This document shows positions 18,173-24,525 of a stretch of DNA of 64,000 nt, one piece after another. The stretch covers positions 45,958 to 109,957 of the forward strand of contig JAFSRN010000003.1 in the NCBI GenBank assembly GCA_017446095.1, in the 5' to 3' direction. The notes below the pieces were generated by a model. It was given only the letters and a program-made list of their open reading frames with translations. It did not search any database and was not told where the DNA came from. Position numbers and translations under genes: made by a program. Source of the stretch: Eubacterium sp. (GTDB lineage: Bacteria > Bacillota > Clostridia > Oscillospirales > Acutalibacteraceae). Position 1 is the stretch's first letter. Each line of letters begins with the position of its first letter.

Positions 18173-19495
18173 ATGATAGGTAAAATAATTTTATTATTAA
18201 TCTTAATATCACTTAACGCAGTCTTCGCCAGCGCGGAGATTGCAGTTATTTCAATGAACGACGCACGTCTGCGCCAACTCACTTCCGAGGGCAATAAAAA
18301 GGCGGTGCGTCTTTCAAAGCTTACAGACCAGCCCTCGCGCTTTCTTGCGACTATTCAGGTTGCAATCACGCTTGCAGGGCTTCTTTCAAGTGCGTTTGCG
18401 GCAGACAGCTTCGCCGCGCCCATAGTAGACGCGCTTATCCGTGCAGGCGTCACCGTGCCAAAGCGCGTGTTAAGTTCGGTAACGCTTGTAGTAATCACGC
18501 TTATTCTCGCATATTTCAACCTCGTTTTCGGCGAACTTGTGCCCAAGCGTATAGCGATGAAGCGCGCGGAAAGTATGGCGCTCGGTATGAGCGGTATGCT
18601 CTACGGCGTGTCCGTAGTGTTCAAGCCTGTTGTGTGGCTGCTCACTGTTTCCACAAACCTTGTGCTGCGCATCTTCGGCATAAATCCCGATGAGAATGAC
18701 GAAAAGATCACCGAGGAAGAAATCCGTATGCTTCTCTCGCAGGGCAGCGAGCAGGGAACAATCAAGGAATATGAAAACGAGATTATTCAGAACGTCTTTG
18801 ATTTTAACGACACAACTATTGAGCAAATCTGTACTCATCGCCGCGATGTTGATCTCCTCGACTGCGCGGACACTGTTGAACAGTGGAACAAAACTATTAA
18901 CGAAACGCGCCACAGCTTCTATCCGCTTGTGCGCGATAATAACGAGAATATTATCGGCATCCTTGATACAAAGGATTACTTCCGCCTCAAAAACAAAACA
19001 AAGCGCACCGTTATTGCAAACGCGGTTGACGAGCCCGTGTTTGTGCCCGAGGGTATGAGCGCGTACAGGCTGTTTAAGCAGATGAAAAGCAGCCGCAAGT
19101 ATTTTGCTGTCATAGTTGATGAATACGGTGGATTTGAGGGCGTAATCACGCTTCACGACCTTATGGAAGCGCTTGTGGGCGATATGCACGATATCGATGA
19201 GGGCAGAATTACAAAGGACATTCAGCCCCTTACAGAGGACAGCTGGCGCATCAAGGGCAGCGCCGATATTGCCGAGGTTTCGCACACGCTCGGGCTTGAT
19301 TTGATGAACGAGGATCTGTACGATACCTTCAACGGTTATGTATGCGACGTGCTGCAGCGCGTACCTAACGACGGCGAAATATTTATTTGCGAAACGGACG
19401 ACCTTACAATTTCTGTCCGCACAGTCAAAAACCATATGGTGCAGTCCGCAATTGTGACTAAAAAGCAAAAAGACGGGGCTGTCTCACAACAGTGA
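18173..19495 (+). CDS. CNNM/CorC (TlyC)-type membrane transporter with CBS pair
   Basis: A 440-residue protein of the DUF21-CBS-CBS-CorC_HlyC architecture. Residues 1-180 hold the four-helix DUF21 membrane domain (with FGELVPKRIA), about 200-330 a CBS pair ending in DEYGGFEGVITLHDLMEAL, and the last 80 residues the CorC_HlyC domain. Such proteins are usually Mg2+ (or cation) exporters; the name hemolysin is historical. No Shine-Dalgarno site precedes ATG 18173, but TATAAT ends only 7 nt before it (18160-18165), so the transcript may be leaderless. The end of the gene carries a GC-rich inverted repeat around its stop codon. Confidence 0.9.
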   Translation: MIGKIILLLILISLNAVFASAEIAVISMNDARLRQLTSEGNKKAVRLSKLTDQPSRFLATIQVAITLAGLLSSAFAADSFAAPIVDALIRAGVTVPKRVLSSVTLVVITLILAYFNLVFGELVPKRIAMKRAESMALGMSGMLYGVSVVFKPVVWLLTVSTNLVLRIFGINPDENDEKITEEEIRMLLSQGSEQGTIKEYENEIIQNVFDFNDTTIEQICTHRRDVDLLDCADTVEQWNKTINETRHSFYPLVRDNNENIIGILDTKDYFRLKNKTKRTVIANAVDEPVFVPEGMSAYRLFKQMKSSRKYFAVIVDEYGGFEGVITLHDLMEALVGDMHDIDEGRITKDIQPLTEDSWRIKGSADIAEVSHTLGLDLMNEDLYDTFNGYVCDVLQRVPNDGEIFICETDDLTISVRTVKNHMVQSAIVTKKQKDGAVSQQ

Positions 19496-19563
19496 GGCAG
19501 TCCGTTATAATTCTTTGTAACCAAAACGCCTGATTATTGTTGTATATATCAGGAGGATAAAAA

Positions 19564-20109
19564 ATGCTGATACTATATTTATCTCTCATTGATGATGAAA
19601 AAGACAGAAGTAAATTTGAAAATATTTATTATGAATACAGGGAAAGAATGTTCAGCGCCGCATTTGACGTTGTTAAGAATAACGAGGACGCGGAGGATGC
19701 CGTGCAAAATGCATTTGTCGGTATAGCTAACAATATGAATGCTATCGGCGATGAGTATTCTAAAAAAACGCTTTCCTATGTAGTAAAGGCTGCAAAGAAC
19801 GCCGCAATCAATATTTACAATAAAAAGAATAAGATTAATACTATTGAATACGATGATGAACTTTTAATTTCTGACAATGATTTTATTGATGAAATAACTG
19901 CTAAACAAAAGGTTGACGAAATCGTTGACGCTATTTACGGATTAAAGGACACATACAAGCTGCCTTTGTATTATTATTTTGTTTGCGATATGAAAATCGG
20001 CGACATCGCAAACCTGCTTGGTATAAGTACCTCCGCAGTCAAGGTGCGGATTCACAGGGGCAAAAAGGAACTTTTAAGACTTACGGGGGATGATCACGAT
20101 GACAAATAA
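19564..20109 (+). CDS. ECF-type RNA polymerase sigma factor
   Basis: A 181-residue sigma-70-family factor. Region 2 lies at about residues 20-60 (YYEYRERMFSAAFDVVKN, then EDAEDAVQNAF). Region 4 lies at about 130-175 and includes the helix-turn-helix MKIGDIANLLGISTSAVKVR. There is no region 3, as in ECF factors. AGGAGG precedes the start. The 3' end overlaps the next gene, a membrane protein whose short cytosolic N-terminus fits an anti-sigma factor. The target regulon is unknown; the downstream secreted paralogues are natural candidates. Confidence 0.92.
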   Translation: MLILYLSLIDDEKDRSKFENIYYEYRERMFSAAFDVVKNNEDAEDAVQNAFVGIANNMNAIGDEYSKKTLSYVVKAAKNAAINIYNKKNKINTIEYDDELLISDNDFIDEITAKQKVDEIVDAIYGLKDTYKLPLYYYFVCDMKIGDIANLLGISTSAVKVRIHRGKKELLRLTGDDHDDK

Positions 20110-21058
20110 AGAATTGTTTGTTCAGGCATTCCTGCAGGCGGATGCGCTCGAAATGGAAAAGTATCAGGCTGAGGCCGATTTCAGCCACGAGTTTTCCGAA
20201 GATTTTGAAAAGAAGATGAATAAGCTTATTGCAAAGAATAATCGCATCAAGCTTAACACAAGAAGAAAAATTTCCAAGGCGCTCATTGCGGCAATAATTG
20301 CAATTACTGTGCTGTTTACAGGCATAATGAGCGTGTCCGCTTCCAGAGAAAAGGTCGTTGAATTTGTGGAAAATATTCTCTGGGCGCATATTACCGTGCA
20401 GGGTAATTCCGCCTGGGGCGAGCACGACGGCAAATGGTATTATAAAACCTGGACTGGGGAAACCATTTCACCCGATATCAAGGTTTGGCTTAACGACAGG
20501 TATTGGGATCACGGTAAATGGGTAACTGTAAGGAAAGACCTTGTTGAGGGGCTTGACTATGAGCTGACTCTCGGCAACAATGTAGATATGGGTTATTGCA
20601 GGGTTATCATAACCGGCATCGGCGCATACCGCGATATTGATATTGTTGAAAAAGCGGATAAAACTTCATATGAGGGAATATCGGAGGAAGAATACAGCCT
20701 GATTGAGCAAACGGATAACGCTAAAGGTCCGATTTTCGTTATCAGACCGCTTGGCACAACCGTTAATACGCTCACACCGATGAATGATGCTGTTGAGGTA
20801 ACATGGGGTTGCCAGGATAAAAAGATGTCCAAAAAGCGCATAACGGGATATCAAATTCAGCTTTCAACAAGCAAGAATTTTGACGAGGACAAAACTAATA
20901 CCTTAACAGTTAAAGGTTATAAAAATACTACCCAAACGGTTAAAAATCTCAAAGAAAACCAAACTTATTATGTCAGAGTAAGAACCTACTTTGAGTGCGT
21001 TGACGGCTTCAGGGCATATTCCCTCTGGAGCAAACCGAAAACCGTTACCACAAAGTAA
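20099..21058 (+). CDS. Putative membrane anti-sigma factor with Ig-like and Fn3 ectodomain
   Basis: A 319-residue protein. Residues 1-58 are charged and cytosolic, 60-80 form one membrane helix (ALIAAIIAITVLFTGIMSVS), and the rest is outside. The ectodomain has a module with YYKTWTGETISPD, then VEGLDYE, GNN.DMGYCR and I.GIGAY, like a divergent clostridial Ig repeat (YTGKxxxP / DYxVxYxNN / GxGxYxG). A fibronectin-III-like domain (KRITGYQIQ, YYVRVRTYF, AYSLWSKPKTV) ends the chain. Start ATG 20099 is chosen over 20090 because GGGGGA lies 9 nt before it; it overlaps the sigma gene by 11 nt. The anti-sigma role is inferred from position and topology. The next two genes repeat the ectodomain as secreted proteins. 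Confidence 0.75.
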   Translation: MTNKELFVQAFLQADALEMEKYQAEADFSHEFSEDFEKKMNKLIAKNNRIKLNTRRKISKALIAAIIAITVLFTGIMSVSASREKVVEFVENILWAHITVQGNSAWGEHDGKWYYKTWTGETISPDIKVWLNDRYWDHGKWVTVRKDLVEGLDYELTLGNNVDMGYCRVIITGIGAYRDIDIVEKADKTSYEGISEEEYSLIEQTDNAKGPIFVIRPLGTTVNTLTPMNDAVEVTWGCQDKKMSKKRITGYQIQLSTSKNFDEDKTNTLTVKGYKNTTQTVKNLKENQTYYVRVRTYFECVDGFRAYSLWSKPKTVTTK

Positions 21059-21062
21059 TAAT

Positions 21063-21090
21063 GTAGGGGCGATTCACGAATCGCCCGCGT
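21063..21090. repeat. REP-like intergenic palindrome
   Basis: TGTAGGG leads into the palindrome GGGCGATTCACGAATCGCCC. It sits 4 nt after the anti-sigma stop and may also act as an attenuating hairpin before the secreted paralogue. It belongs with the elements at 18131 and 33863. Confidence 0.65.
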
Positions 21091-21125
21091 AAAAAATACC
21101 TCTACACTACAAAGGAGATGTTATA

Positions 21126-21911
21126 ATGAAAAAGGTGTTATCATTTGTCTTTGCGCTTGTAATGATTATTGCCGCGCTTCCGATTAGCACTTATGCCGAA
21201 ACTAAAGCAGCAGCACCCGAATACAGCGGTACAAGTATTACCGTTAATAAAAAAGACGCATGGGGCTCTTACAGAGGCTGGTACTACTATAAAACCTGGA
21301 CGGGCAAGCCGATTACGCCTGAAGTTAAGCTGTTTCAGGAGTACAGGCAGTTAGTTAACGGGCGCTGGGAATTTGAACCAAGATACCTCGTTGAAGGTAA
21401 AGACTATGTAAAGTCCTTCGGCAACAACACCGATATGGGGCATTGCCGTATTAAGATTAAAGGTAAAGGCAAATACAGCAAAACCGACCTTGTAGATTTA
21501 GCAAGCACATATTGTTTGGATAAGCTTACTGAGGAAGAGTATCTGGATATTGAAAAATCAGGTTTTGCCCCCGGTCCTGTGTTTGTTATCAGGCCTCTTG
21601 GCACAAAGCTCGGCAAGATGACGGGGCAGAAAAAGGGCTTTAAAGCAACGTGGAAACGTCAGGCGAAGAAGATGTCCGTTAATCGCATAACCGGTTATCA
21701 GATACAGTATGCAAAATACCCTGATTTATTTGACCTCGGTTACGGTTACAAGACAGTAAGCGTTAAAGGGTACAAGAATACTACATTGACAGTTAAAGAC
21801 CTCGAACCTAAAAGAAAGTATTATGTACGCGTCAGAACGTACTACCGGTGTAAAGACGGCTTTAAAGCGTACTCAACATGGAGCGAGATAAAAGCTGTTA
21901 AAACTAAATAA
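21126..21911 (+). CDS. Secreted Ig-like/Fn3 protein, paralogue of the anti-sigma ectodomain (1)
   Basis: A 261-residue protein with a signal peptide (MKKVLSFVFALVMIIAALP..., cleavage after TYA). The mature part repeats the module of the upstream membrane protein almost in register: WYYYKTWTGKPITPEVKL, VEGKDYVKSFGNNTDMG, GKGKY, GPVFVIRPLGT, KKMSVNRITGYQIQ, VKGYKNTTLTVK and YYVRVRTYY...AYSTWS. No anchor or enzyme motif is seen, so it is probably released and binds something. AAAGGAGATG precedes the ATG. Function is unknown; the shared module suggests that it binds the same ligand as, or the same partner as, the sensor. Confidence 0.78.
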   Translation: MKKVLSFVFALVMIIAALPISTYAETKAAAPEYSGTSITVNKKDAWGSYRGWYYYKTWTGKPITPEVKLFQEYRQLVNGRWEFEPRYLVEGKDYVKSFGNNTDMGHCRIKIKGKGKYSKTDLVDLASTYCLDKLTEEEYLDIEKSGFAPGPVFVIRPLGTKLGKMTGQKKGFKATWKRQAKKMSVNRITGYQIQYAKYPDLFDLGYGYKTVSVKGYKNTTLTVKDLEPKRKYYVRVRTYYRCKDGFKAYSTWSEIKAVKTK

Positions 21912-21941
21912 CCTGTAGAATTAGTTAAGGAAGTGATTGTT

Positions 21942-22736
21942 TTGAAAAAGACAACTAAAATATTATCATTTGTTTTTGCACTTGTTATGGCGATTGCCGC
22001 GCTTCCTGTAGGTGCGTCGGCGGAGACTGAAATAATTCCGAATCCGGCGATTACTATCGGTTCCCGGACCGGCTGGGGCGGATACACGGGAACGGGCTGG
22101 TGCTACAGAACCTGGACGGGCAAACCTTTAACGCCGAAAGTCGCTGTGTTTGACGGCGACAAGGAACTTGTTGACGGTAAGGACTACGAAAAAGCATACG
22201 GTAACAACATAGATATGGGCTACTGCCATGTAAAAGTAACGGGTATAGGTGAATATGAAGATTCGGGATTGTGGATTGAAGCACTTTGCGAGGAAGTATT
22301 TCACAGCCCTGCCGACGGTCTTGACGGCGATGAAGTCGACTCAAGCGAATATCTTTTCAGAGGTCCGTTGTTTGTGATCAGACCGCTCGGTACAACGCTG
22401 AACACGGTAACGCCGCTGAAAAAAGGTGTTAAGGTAACGTGGAAACGTCAGGCAAAGAAGATGTCCGTAGACCGTGTGACAGGCTATCAGATTCAGTTTT
22501 CGCCGAGAAAAGACTTCAAAAGAGGCACTACAAAGACCATAACCGTTAAGGGTTACAAGAACACCGCAAAAACGGTTAAAAAGCTCAAAGGCAACAAAAA
22601 ATACTATGTCAGAGTTAGAACTTATTATGTAGAAAAGGACGGTTTAACGGAATACTCCTATAAAGACGGATATAAGGACGGTTTCAATGCATACTCCACC
22701 TGGAGCAAAGCAAAAGCATTTAAAACTAAGAAATAA
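21942..22736 (+). CDS. Secreted Ig-like/Fn3 protein, paralogue of the anti-sigma ectodomain (2)
   Basis: A 264-residue protein, second secreted copy of the module. The signal peptide ends at ASA. I take TTG 21942 as the start because AAGGAAG lies 8 nt upstream and the next codons (KKTTKILSFVFALVM) match the paralogue's signal peptide; an in-frame GTG at 21933 overlaps the ribosome site. Shared blocks are WCYRTWTGKPLTPKV, VDGKDYEKAYGNNIDMGYC, GPLFVIRPLGTTLNTVTP, KKMSVDRVTGYQIQ and YYVRVRTYY. Near the C-terminus it has an insertion (about 12 residues, KDGLTEYSYKDG) absent from the sister. It follows the sister gene by 30 nt and is probably in the same operon. Confidence 0.75.
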   Translation: MKKTTKILSFVFALVMAIAALPVGASAETEIIPNPAITIGSRTGWGGYTGTGWCYRTWTGKPLTPKVAVFDGDKELVDGKDYEKAYGNNIDMGYCHVKVTGIGEYEDSGLWIEALCEEVFHSPADGLDGDEVDSSEYLFRGPLFVIRPLGTTLNTVTPLKKGVKVTWKRQAKKMSVDRVTGYQIQFSPRKDFKRGTTKTITVKGYKNTAKTVKKLKGNKKYYVRVRTYYVEKDGLTEYSYKDGYKDGFNAYSTWSKAKAFKTKK

Positions 22737-22763: not shown

Positions 22764-24491
22764 ATGAAAAAATGTTTATCATTATTTTTAGCCCTTGTTA
22801 TGTTAATCTGCTCATCAACTGTATTTTGCGTTAACGCTTATGCCAAAACTACTGAGGAGTATACAATCATTTCAAAGGCCTCGGATTTTGAAAAAATCAA
22901 GCAGAATCCAAACGGTGTATTCTACATCACAAAGGACATCGACTTTTCGTCTTATACGCTTTACAAGTCCGAAGAGGATGTGATGGGATTATTTAAAGGC
23001 ACTATTGAGGGTAACGGTCATACTATTAAGAATTACAAGGGTGTATCTATATTTGGTTATAATAACTATGGTACTATTCGCAATATCATTTTTGAAGATT
23101 GTGATATCGTAGATTTTGATTATACCGGCGTTGTTGTATGCTTCAACCTCGGAGTTATTGATAACATCGTTATGAACAACTGCAATTCAACTCTTGCATA
23201 TAATAATGGGCAGGATAACTGGAACGGAGACGCTTCATGGCGTGAGTTTACTTTTGACAGCGGTATCATACGTTACTGCGTATCAAATAACTGTACAGAG
23301 CCTATGTTATGGTGTAATATGGGCACGATGATAGGCTGTATTAATAACTCCGATATCAGACACGAAATATATGATTACTACCCGGTCGGCGGTCTTTCAA
23401 GTATCGGCGGCGGAACATTTATTGACTGTGTAAATAACGGTGACATTCATACAGGCAAACCCACTGCAGGCGGAATATTCGGCGGTTATGGTTCGGCTCA
23501 TTTAATAAGATGTACTAATAACGGTTCTGTCACTTCTGAAAGCAAAATTGCCTGCGGTATGGGCAGCGGTTATGATGTTGTTGCTAAAGACTGCGTTAAT
23601 AACGGCGAAATTACAGGAAGCACTGCCTACGGTATTGCGGCGAACGGACGAATCGAAACGAGCGTTAACACGGGTAAAATCACCGCAACAGGCGAAGGCA
23701 AAACGGCGTTTGCAATAAAAGACAGTGATGATAGTATTGCAGAAGAACACGTCATTTATGAATATGAGAGAGACCCTGCATACGTTACGGATTCGTATTA
23801 TCTAGAAGGAACTGGTGAAGGCTGCGTCGGCACAACTCCACTCACTTCAGTCGAACTTACAAACAGTTCAAATTTCAATAACTTTGATTTCAAAAAGGTG
23901 TGGCAGATTAAAGATAATACCCCATATCTTCAGGCTAATAACGCAAAGACAATAGGTATTGCAGTCAAAAAGCTTCCTAAAAAGACAACGGGATATCAAT
24001 ACGGCACTTACCACGAGTACTTTTATGAAGGCGATTACTTAGATACTACGGGAATGGAACTCGTTGCCTTTGACAGCCACGGCAATCAGTTTGAACCTGA
24101 GTATTACCACATCAATACTTACGATATATGGGATCCGGGTACGTACAGAATCGAAGTTTATTACGATAGTTTTTCGGCGTATTTCAATGTAAAAACGATT
24201 GTAAAACCGGGCAAGGTTACAGGTCTGAAAGCGTCAAAAATCGCAAAAAAGTCAGTTACTCTTACCTGGAAAAAGTCAAAAAGTGCTATGGGCTATGAGG
24301 TGCAGCGTTACTACGCAGGCAGATGGGAAAGCTGGAAACACGAAAAGAACGCCAGTAAGAACAAAGCTGTGATTAAAAACCTTAAAAAAGGTAAGTCATA
24401 TAAATTCCGTGTTGTAGCTTACCGCACTGTAAAAGGCAAAAAATATTACGGCGAAACAAGCAAAGCATTAAAAGTAAAAACAAAAAAATAA
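22764..24491 (+). CDS. Secreted GLUG-repeat, Ig-like and Fn3 protein
   Basis: A 575-residue protein with a signal peptide ending AYA. Residues about 60-330 carry GLUG/beta-helix-like repeats (recurring CxNNGxI...GGIxG patterns, e.g. DCVNNGDIHTGKPTAGGIFG). About 395-475 form an Ig-like domain (YFYEGDYLDTTGMELVAFD...PGTYRIEVYY) and 480-575 a fibronectin-III domain (KVTGLKASKIAKKSVTLTWK, ending VKTKK). There is no catalytic motif and no sorting signal. It lies 27 nt after the secreted paralogue pair and ends the run with a terminator, so it may belong to the same regulon. Adhesion or glycan binding is only a guess. Confidence 0.75.
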   Translation: MKKCLSLFLALVMLICSSTVFCVNAYAKTTEEYTIISKASDFEKIKQNPNGVFYITKDIDFSSYTLYKSEEDVMGLFKGTIEGNGHTIKNYKGVSIFGYNNYGTIRNIIFEDCDIVDFDYTGVVVCFNLGVIDNIVMNNCNSTLAYNNGQDNWNGDASWREFTFDSGIIRYCVSNNCTEPMLWCNMGTMIGCINNSDIRHEIYDYYPVGGLSSIGGGTFIDCVNNGDIHTGKPTAGGIFGGYGSAHLIRCTNNGSVTSESKIACGMGSGYDVVAKDCVNNGEITGSTAYGIAANGRIETSVNTGKITATGEGKTAFAIKDSDDSIAEEHVIYEYERDPAYVTDSYYLEGTGEGCVGTTPLTSVELTNSSNFNNFDFKKVWQIKDNTPYLQANNAKTIGIAVKKLPKKTTGYQYGTYHEYFYEGDYLDTTGMELVAFDSHGNQFEPEYYHINTYDIWDPGTYRIEVYYDSFSAYFNVKTIVKPGKVTGLKASKIAKKSVTLTWKKSKSAMGYEVQRYYAGRWESWKHEKNASKNKAVIKNLKKGKSYKFRVVAYRTVKGKKYYGETSKALKVKTKK

Positions 24492-24493
24492 AT

Positions 24494-24525
24494 AAATCGG
24501 GCAGAATTTCTGCCCGATTTTCTTG
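24494..24525 (+). terminator. Rho-independent terminator after the secreted-protein operon
   Basis: Stem AAATCGGGCAGAA / TTCTGCCCGATTT followed by TTCTTG, directly after the stop codon. Confidence 0.88.

Follow-up and report, generated by a model that had tools for sequence, protein, structure and literature searches.

An extracytoplasmic function sigma factor locus in a Eubacterium genome whose putative anti-sigma factor shares its ectodomain with exported proteins

The stretch of DNA analysed here is a 64,000-nucleotide window, to which all positions refer, on contig C19 of the 2.09 Mb genome of a Eubacterium species (G000, the window genome). Between 19476 and 24520 it carries a gene unit headed by an extracytoplasmic function (ECF) sigma factor. 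The sigma gene is followed by genes for a membrane protein with an immunoglobulin-like (Ig-like) module and a fibronectin type 3 (Fn3) domain outside the membrane (a putative anti-sigma factor, here called the sensor), for two exported proteins that repeat this ectodomain (copies A and B) and for an exported surface protein. The features are as follows.

19476..19503, + strand: intrinsic-terminator-like hairpin upstream of the unit, behind a CNNM gene (consensus match only)
19515..19545, + strand: ECF-type promoter motif TTGTAACC-N15-TGTTGTAT before the sigma gene (16 of 16 letters; equalled by 0 of 200 shuffles)
19564..20109, + strand: ECF sigma factor, 181 aa (Pfam PF08281 and PF04542, and TIGR02937, above cut-off)
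20090..21058, + strand: sensor, a single-pass putative anti-sigma factor of 322 aa (second possible ATG at 20099)
20267..20347, + strand: membrane segment of the sensor, residues 60-86, with V-S-A (82-84) near its end
20387..20758, + strand: Ig-like module and linker of the sensor
20759..21055, + strand: Fn3 domain of the sensor, low net charge
21066..21086: palindromic repeat element GGGGCGATTCACGAATCGCCC (noted also as GGGGCGATTCNNGAATCGCCC), between the sensor gene and copy A
21126..21911, + strand: exported copy A, 261 aa, mature net charge about +23
21933..22736, + strand: exported copy B, 267 aa (GTG start as listed; by inspection the TTG at 21942 is the likelier start)
22764..24491, + strand: exported surface protein, 575 aa, Big_3 and Fn3, a constant member of the cluster, with an N-terminal part that is GLUG-like by eye
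24494..24520, both strands: terminator-like hairpin closing the unit (consensus match only)

The sigma gene product has the make-up of an ECF factor, being short (181 aa) and consisting of regions 2 and 4 only, with scores over the cut-offs for PF04542 (Sigma70_r2, 32.2 bits), PF08281 (r4_2, 37.5 bits) and TIGR02937 (65.2 bits). Its overlap with the gene for a single-pass membrane protein, reported in a preliminary description of this DNA, was confirmed: the two genes share 20 bp (11 bp if the membrane gene starts at the second ATG), and a single hydrophobic segment is present at residues 60-86. The same description listed two secreted genes behind the sensor. This is correct for A and B, but the unit runs on to 24491 with a third exported protein that had not been included, and a further full-length copy lies elsewhere in the genome. 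The N-terminal part of the surface protein gave no Pfam match to a GLUG model, the nearest weak match of broader span there being Pectate_lyase_5 (E 0.086). With five genes behind one ECF-type promoter motif and terminator-like hairpins on either side, the unit is likely to form a single transcript. Terminator-like hairpins are barely above chance in the region (6 found, mean of 4.5 in shuffles), with a weak terminator-like match within the surface-protein gene (23230-23243), and sigma-70-type promoter-like matches number 22 against 13.3 expected, some of them within the unit.

The sensor ectodomain aligns over its whole length with copy A (49% identity) and copy B (52% identity). Local alignment scores for the three ectodomain pairs are 528-585, compared with no more than 65 for any of the 200 shuffles made of each pair, and the recurrence of the ectodomain in the next two genes thus stands. 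The five sequence blocks previously described as shared are present with small changes: the first reads YYKTWTGE, YYKTWTGK or CYRTWTGK in the three proteins, and GNNxDMG, FVIRPLGT, KKMSxxR(I/V)TGYQIQ and YYVRVRTY each occur in all three. The linker, too, ends in a stretch that is conserved between sensor and copies. When the whole window genome was searched with the ectodomain (E up to 1), 47 places were found, with 39 corresponding to the Fn3 part, 4 to a short Ig stretch and 4 to the whole length; the latter are the sensor, copies A and B, and an unlinked exported copy on contig C1 (8874-9542, 57% identity). Since Fn3 matches are common in the genome, only the Ig module with its linker is specific, the Fn3 domain being common stock. 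Among 16 Fn3 loci tested, 15 have the domain at their end, and a signal-like segment could be recognised by eye at the start of all 7 loci for which the whole start was available. A structure model of the ectodomain alone reached a mean predicted local distance difference test score (pLDDT) of 82; that of the whole sensor was poor (pLDDT 61.8).

To place the locus among its relatives, 80 genus genomes served as the main comparison set. Alignment with the Ig-plus-linker module gave some match at E up to 1e-5 in 44 of these, and whole-length matches (123-124 of 124 positions, E below 1e-30) in 4: the window genome (4 matches) and the sister species SIG610 (G011, 3), RUG741 (G043, 2) and SRR873610_bin.20 (G068, 2). 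The sister records are Oscillospiraceae/Clostridia metagenome assemblies. A scan of named genomes returned six loci, all within the three sister genomes, and among 398 evenly drawn family genomes (few of the genus) E 1e-14 was passed by the window's own module only. The N-terminal part of the surface protein (at E up to 1e-20) and the exact N15 promoter motif described below are confined to the same 4 of 80 genomes as the whole-length module. A core of sigma factor, sensor and surface protein is constant across all four clusters. In RUG741 this core is followed by a copy running off the contig end; in SIG610 a cinA-like gene comes next, and the two copies lie on further contigs; and in SRR873610_bin.20 the only copy is on another contig. 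Exported copies are therefore present in all four genomes and adjacent to the sigma locus in two, so that the order of sigma, membrane and secreted-paralogue genes, which had been proposed as a search pattern, is not the rule. The proposed functional link between sensor and copies draws support from the co-occurrence in the same four genomes, from the likely shared unit in the window and from the motif before an unlinked sister copy. Carriage of the module or the surface protein by viruses or phages was considered and rejected, as peptide patterns matched 48 and 6 stretches in IMG/VR, respectively, none of which was confirmed as a relative.

The surface-protein gene is 97-98% identical at the DNA level across three species (window 22764-24491; L069 4207-5934; L070 6703-8430), with 95-96% identity at four-fold sites compared with 31-55% for neighbouring genes (73-86% DNA identity) and sharp edges between about 22700 and 22750 and near 24490, which looks like a recent gene-sized exchange. 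In the case of the copies at L031 8871-9653 and L069 6027-6769, the Fn3 DNA is 97-100% identical and the rest 53-77%, pointing to recombination at the level of the module. A gene for a related protein of 494-496 aa directly precedes an exported copy in two species (L031 9709-11199 and L074 4060-5544), the copies being of different subtypes. The palindrome GGGGCGATTCNNGAATCGCCC gave 51 pattern hits at 49 places in the window genome and 0 in the three sister genomes, and is perhaps a recently spread repeat element.

Homologues of the sigma factor are more widespread than the module, occurring in 37 of the 80 genomes at E up to 1e-12. Of 26 sigma-homologue loci listed, five had their anti-sigma factors scanned with Pfam: those of G016, G012, G076, G033 and G057, which hold the nearest whole sigma homologues outside the four species (45-60% identity; G023 was left out because its sigma gene is cut by the contig end). 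Each of these sigma genes is followed by a membrane gene that aligns with the sensor N-terminus, membrane segment and juxtamembrane stretch, and PF14285 (DUF4367) is over its cut-off in all five outgroup proteins, compared with none of the four Ig/Fn3 sensors in the same type of scan. The four sensors have the homologous cytosolic N-terminus and membrane segment, and their genes lie directly behind the sigma gene in every case. Thus, the DUF4367 proteins match the sensor in cytosolic part, membrane segment, sigma partner and gene order, but where they have the DUF4367 ectodomain the sensor has an Ig-like module and Fn3 domain. The sensor resembles an anti-sigma factor of the DUF4367 type in which the ectodomain has been exchanged. 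In an unrooted tree of 11 ectodomains, the 4 sensors form one group against the 7 exported copies (support 100/99), so a single exchange would suffice; identity within the Ig part is 68-85% among sensors and 40-61% among copies. Assignment of the two genes as a sigma/anti-sigma pair, made earlier from the sequence alone, is well supported by the five homologous DUF4367 pairs together with a conserved promoter motif of the sigma factor's own type before the sigma gene. No paper on DUF4367 was found in the open-licence literature. An alignment of nine anti-sigma proteins (4 sensors and 5 DUF4367 proteins) shows V82-S83-A84, near the outer end of the membrane segment, to be invariant; judged by eye, this is a candidate signal-peptidase-like site.

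Three other ECF loci were noted in the window genome (L029 2893-7111, L030 2349-6312 and L032 4335-7081). Two of the three have, in a row, a sigma gene, a membrane gene (anti-sigma by position) and a gene for a large exported LRR_5 protein with a C-terminal Fn3 domain. At the third, the membrane protein itself (721 aa) has a long Big_3 and LRR_5 ectodomain.

The promoter motif, in the form TTGTAACC-N15-TGTT(G/A)TAT, occurs at the same place upstream of the sigma gene in all four species; in SRR873610_bin.20, visual inspection showed it upstream of the exported copy and of the surface-protein gene as well. An exact search of the 80 genomes with the N15 spacer returned 8 places, all in these four genomes (reversed control, 0). 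Four of them belong to the sigma genes and two to acyltransferases, with one each at a surface-protein gene and an unlinked copy. Allowing spacers of 14-17 gave 11 places in 6 of 80 genomes (reversed control, 1), of which 10 are accounted for by 5 sigma genes of the lineage, an unlinked copy, 2 acyltransferase genes and 2 genes for exported proteins that follow an anti-sigma gene, each with the motif upstream. Of the three places added in this way, the one in G001 is a stray; the others are in G057, upstream of the sigma gene and of a small exported gene that follows the DUF4367 gene. The motif thus belongs to this sigma lineage, and an exported protein encoded after the anti-sigma gene may have come under sigma control before the ectodomain was exchanged. 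The motif was recognised from six of the sites; those at the two acyltransferase genes and the two in G057 emerged from later searches and scans. A shorter motif, with 13 exact places in the four genomes, revealed the two sites before PF01757 acyltransferase genes, which were not known before; 5 of its places that do not fit the longer motif were set aside, three of them antisense in Fn3 coding sequence (G000 twice, G043 once) and the others at G011:C103 and G043:C158. A search with two mismatches was discarded as too loose, with matches in 74 of 80 genomes.

A weaker likeness (9-12 of 16 letters) precedes the sigma genes of G016, G012, G076, G033 and G023. The sequence read by eye in G033 is TTGTAACA-N17-TGTTGTAT, a spacer outside those tried in the 16-letter scoring; among DUF4367 outgroups the promoter type is thus clear in G057 and partial in G033. 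When 17 upstream stretches were scored against simple letter shuffles (the stretch of copy B being counted from 21948, not from 21933 or 21942, and that of one acyltransferase gene being limited to 80 bases), 8 scored 15-16 of 16, with 0 of 200 shuffles as good, and 9 scored 9-11, within the range of shuffles. The low scorers are the window's A, B and surface-protein genes and the surface-protein genes of RUG741 and SIG610, all inside units, together with the C1 copy, the RUG741 copy and both SIG610 copies. In terms of sigma linkage, three of the seven copies lie inside the unit (A and B) or have their own motif (SRR873610_bin.20), one may be reached by read-through (RUG741, behind the surface-protein gene) and three have no visible link. 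The motif-linked acyltransferases are PF01757 proteins of 373-390 aa encoded outside the sigma operon. In the four species, one or two PF01757 genes of differing type (L150, L153, L155, L157 and L158) precede a SpoU-type methylase gene, with the ribosomal L20 gene at the other side in three species and a contig end there in G068 (both flanking families were checked in L158 only); the sigma motif stands before the PF01757 genes in two of the four.

Sensor and copies differ in the charge of the Fn3 domain. Its net charge is +1.5 to +7.9 in all four sensors and +19.7 to +29.7 in all six copies with an Fn3 domain, one of which is truncated; the seventh copy, at a contig end, is without it. Of 16 other Fn3 loci, 15 are at +15.8 to +29.8 over their last 99 residues (L013 was left out of these counts, as outside the selection rule). 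The copies were initially described as secreted and unanchored. Export is consistent with the one N-terminal hydrophobic segment in each of A and B, and an LPxTG-like motif was sought in both and not found; 'unanchored' is doubtful, however, given the strongly cationic Fn3 domain of the copies. This domain may hold the exported proteins on the anionic wall, with the membrane-bound sensor having lost that charge.

The sensor was also likened to RsgI. Proteins of the RsgI family have an RsgI N-terminal domain and SigI as partner, and in the SigI/RsgI systems of cellulolytic clostridia the ectodomain modules are also found in exported proteins of the same cell. There was no RsgI-type or carbohydrate-binding family among the Pfam matches of the sensor at E up to 1 (Pfam contains an RsgI_N model), and the partner here, unlike SigI, is an ECF sigma factor with regions 2 and 4. 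Membership of the RsgI family hence finds no support. RsiV-family membership was rejected, as the sensor has no Pfam match to DUF4163 or DUF3298 at E up to 1 (RsiV domain make-up from PMC5014341). In B. subtilis, RsiV is cut at site 1 by signal peptidase on binding lysozyme, and induced RsiV also binds free lysozyme and inhibits it (PMC5014341); RsiP is likewise cut at site 1 by signal peptidase (PMC8844934). The SigV-RsiV-OatA system resembles the present locus in that its anti-sigma factor crosses the membrane once and has a signal-peptidase site next to it (here a candidate site, judged by eye), and in that the regulon includes an acyltransferase, although the acyltransferases here are of PF01757 and outside the operon. 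SigV also drives dlt expression (PMC5014341), and a link of dlt to sigma-V is reported in PMC9044953 as well.

A close parallel is C. difficile LbpA, a relative of RsiV that is encoded in the csfV (sigma-V) operon and lacks the sigma-binding domain; LbpA binds lysozyme and confers resistance to low levels of this enzyme (PMC9044953). CsfV/RsiV/LbpA and the present locus are alike in that a sigma operon contains an anti-sigma factor and its relative lacking the sigma-binding part, and cell-wall modifying genes belong to the C. difficile sigma-V regulon (PMC9044953). None of the seven copies described here has a cytosolic part. In contrast to LbpA, there are several exported copies, the Ig/Fn3 modules are unrelated and the ligand need not be lysozyme. 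By analogy, the arrangement appears to repeat the LbpA idea with another module, making LbpA a close functional precedent. The open-licence literature, judged by titles and abstract starts, yielded no sigma/anti-sigma arrangement with Ig/Fn3 exported copies, and decoy wording led only to work on PbpP. The preliminary statement that no such system had been described was nevertheless too strong because LbpA exists.

From gene order, homology, the domain difference from the outgroups, co-occurrence, motif and charge, we infer that the locus is an ECF sigma switch that responds to conditions at the cell envelope and regulates its own expression. The membrane protein would hold the sigma factor via its cytosolic part. 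Binding of a ligand to the Ig-like ectodomain would expose a cleavage site at V-S-A (82-84), at the outer edge of the membrane segment, whereupon signal peptidase and then site-2 protease would destroy the anchor and free the sigma factor. This would transcribe its own unit, here including two soluble ectodomain copies and the surface protein; in sister species, the genes for an unlinked copy, for the surface protein and for membrane acyltransferases are likewise preceded by putative sigma sites. The copies would bind the same class of ligand through the Ig module, be kept on the wall by their strongly cationic Fn3 domain, and soak up or mask the ligand, providing both protection and negative feedback. 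The sensor itself would derive from a DUF4367-type anti-sigma factor that swapped its ectodomain for an exported module. The cleavage of RsiV and RsiP, the inhibition of lysozyme by RsiV and the example of LbpA make decoy or shield copies the best-supported reading, and we regard an envelope-stress switch with sigma-linked, wall-binding ectodomain copies that work like LbpA beside RsiV as having an even chance of being correct.

A number of observations weigh against this model. The Ig modules of the copies diverge widely from one another, and the copies therefore need not bind the ligand of the sensor; the module has no Pfam match of its own. For three of the seven copies (C1 in the window genome; C43 and C16 in SIG610), which are not located at the sigma locus, no motif stands within 220 bases, leaving SIG610 without a visibly sigma-controlled copy, and the acyltransferases of the window species and RUG741 are without the motif. 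A copy adjoins the sigma locus in only half of the clusters. The internal promoter- and terminator-like matches mean that parts of the unit may be transcribed separately. Finally, the four species possibly constitute one clade, in which case their co-occurrence may count once.

Some of these points would fit plain sharing of modules, whereby Ig and Fn3 modules are a stock of the genus, the sensor borrowed its ectodomain from a family of exported surface proteins, and these proteins have a structural or adhesive role that leaves signalling untouched. The 39 further Fn3 matches in the window genome, the module-level recombination between two copies and the three unlinked, motif-free copies all favour this explanation, but the whole Ig-plus-linker is restricted to the four sensor-bearing genomes of the genus set, was met in the draw of 398 family genomes only as the window's own, and in one unlinked copy is preceded by the sigma-type motif. 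We consider plain sharing a real possibility, if on balance an unlikely one.

A different role for the copies is envisaged in homeostasis of a surface coat, with sensor and wall-bound copies competing for the cell's own wall polymer and the sigma factor reporting coverage and making cover when the wall is bare. The cationic charge of Fn3 on copies and not on sensors agrees with this, as does the presence of the surface protein and acyltransferases among the motif sites; in L071, AMP-binding and MBOAT genes, a pair reminiscent of dltA-dltB in dlt operons, lie just before the sigma locus. This reading supposes that the Ig module binds wall polymer, and we rate coat homeostasis as improbable. Somewhat less improbable, though still doubtful, is a sigma switch that reads its own product: sensor and wall-bound copies would compete for one wall or glycan ligand, copies would be made until the ligand is covered, and the lost Fn3 charge of the sensor would tune the competition. 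The exported copies could also act as positive partners, either by delivering ligand to the sensor or by joining it in mixed oligomers. This would account for the common whole-length architecture and the conserved stretch at the linker end; yet clusters without adjacent copies exist and the data do not favour activation over titration, making co-receptors very unlikely.

The locus thus offers what looks like a clear exchange of ectodomain on a conserved anti-sigma chassis, with the outgroups displaying the likely earlier state, and the promoter motif renders the candidate regulon directly testable. If decoy feedback by the exported copies is confirmed, it would point to a general strategy of Gram-positive bacteria for dampening signals of envelope stress.

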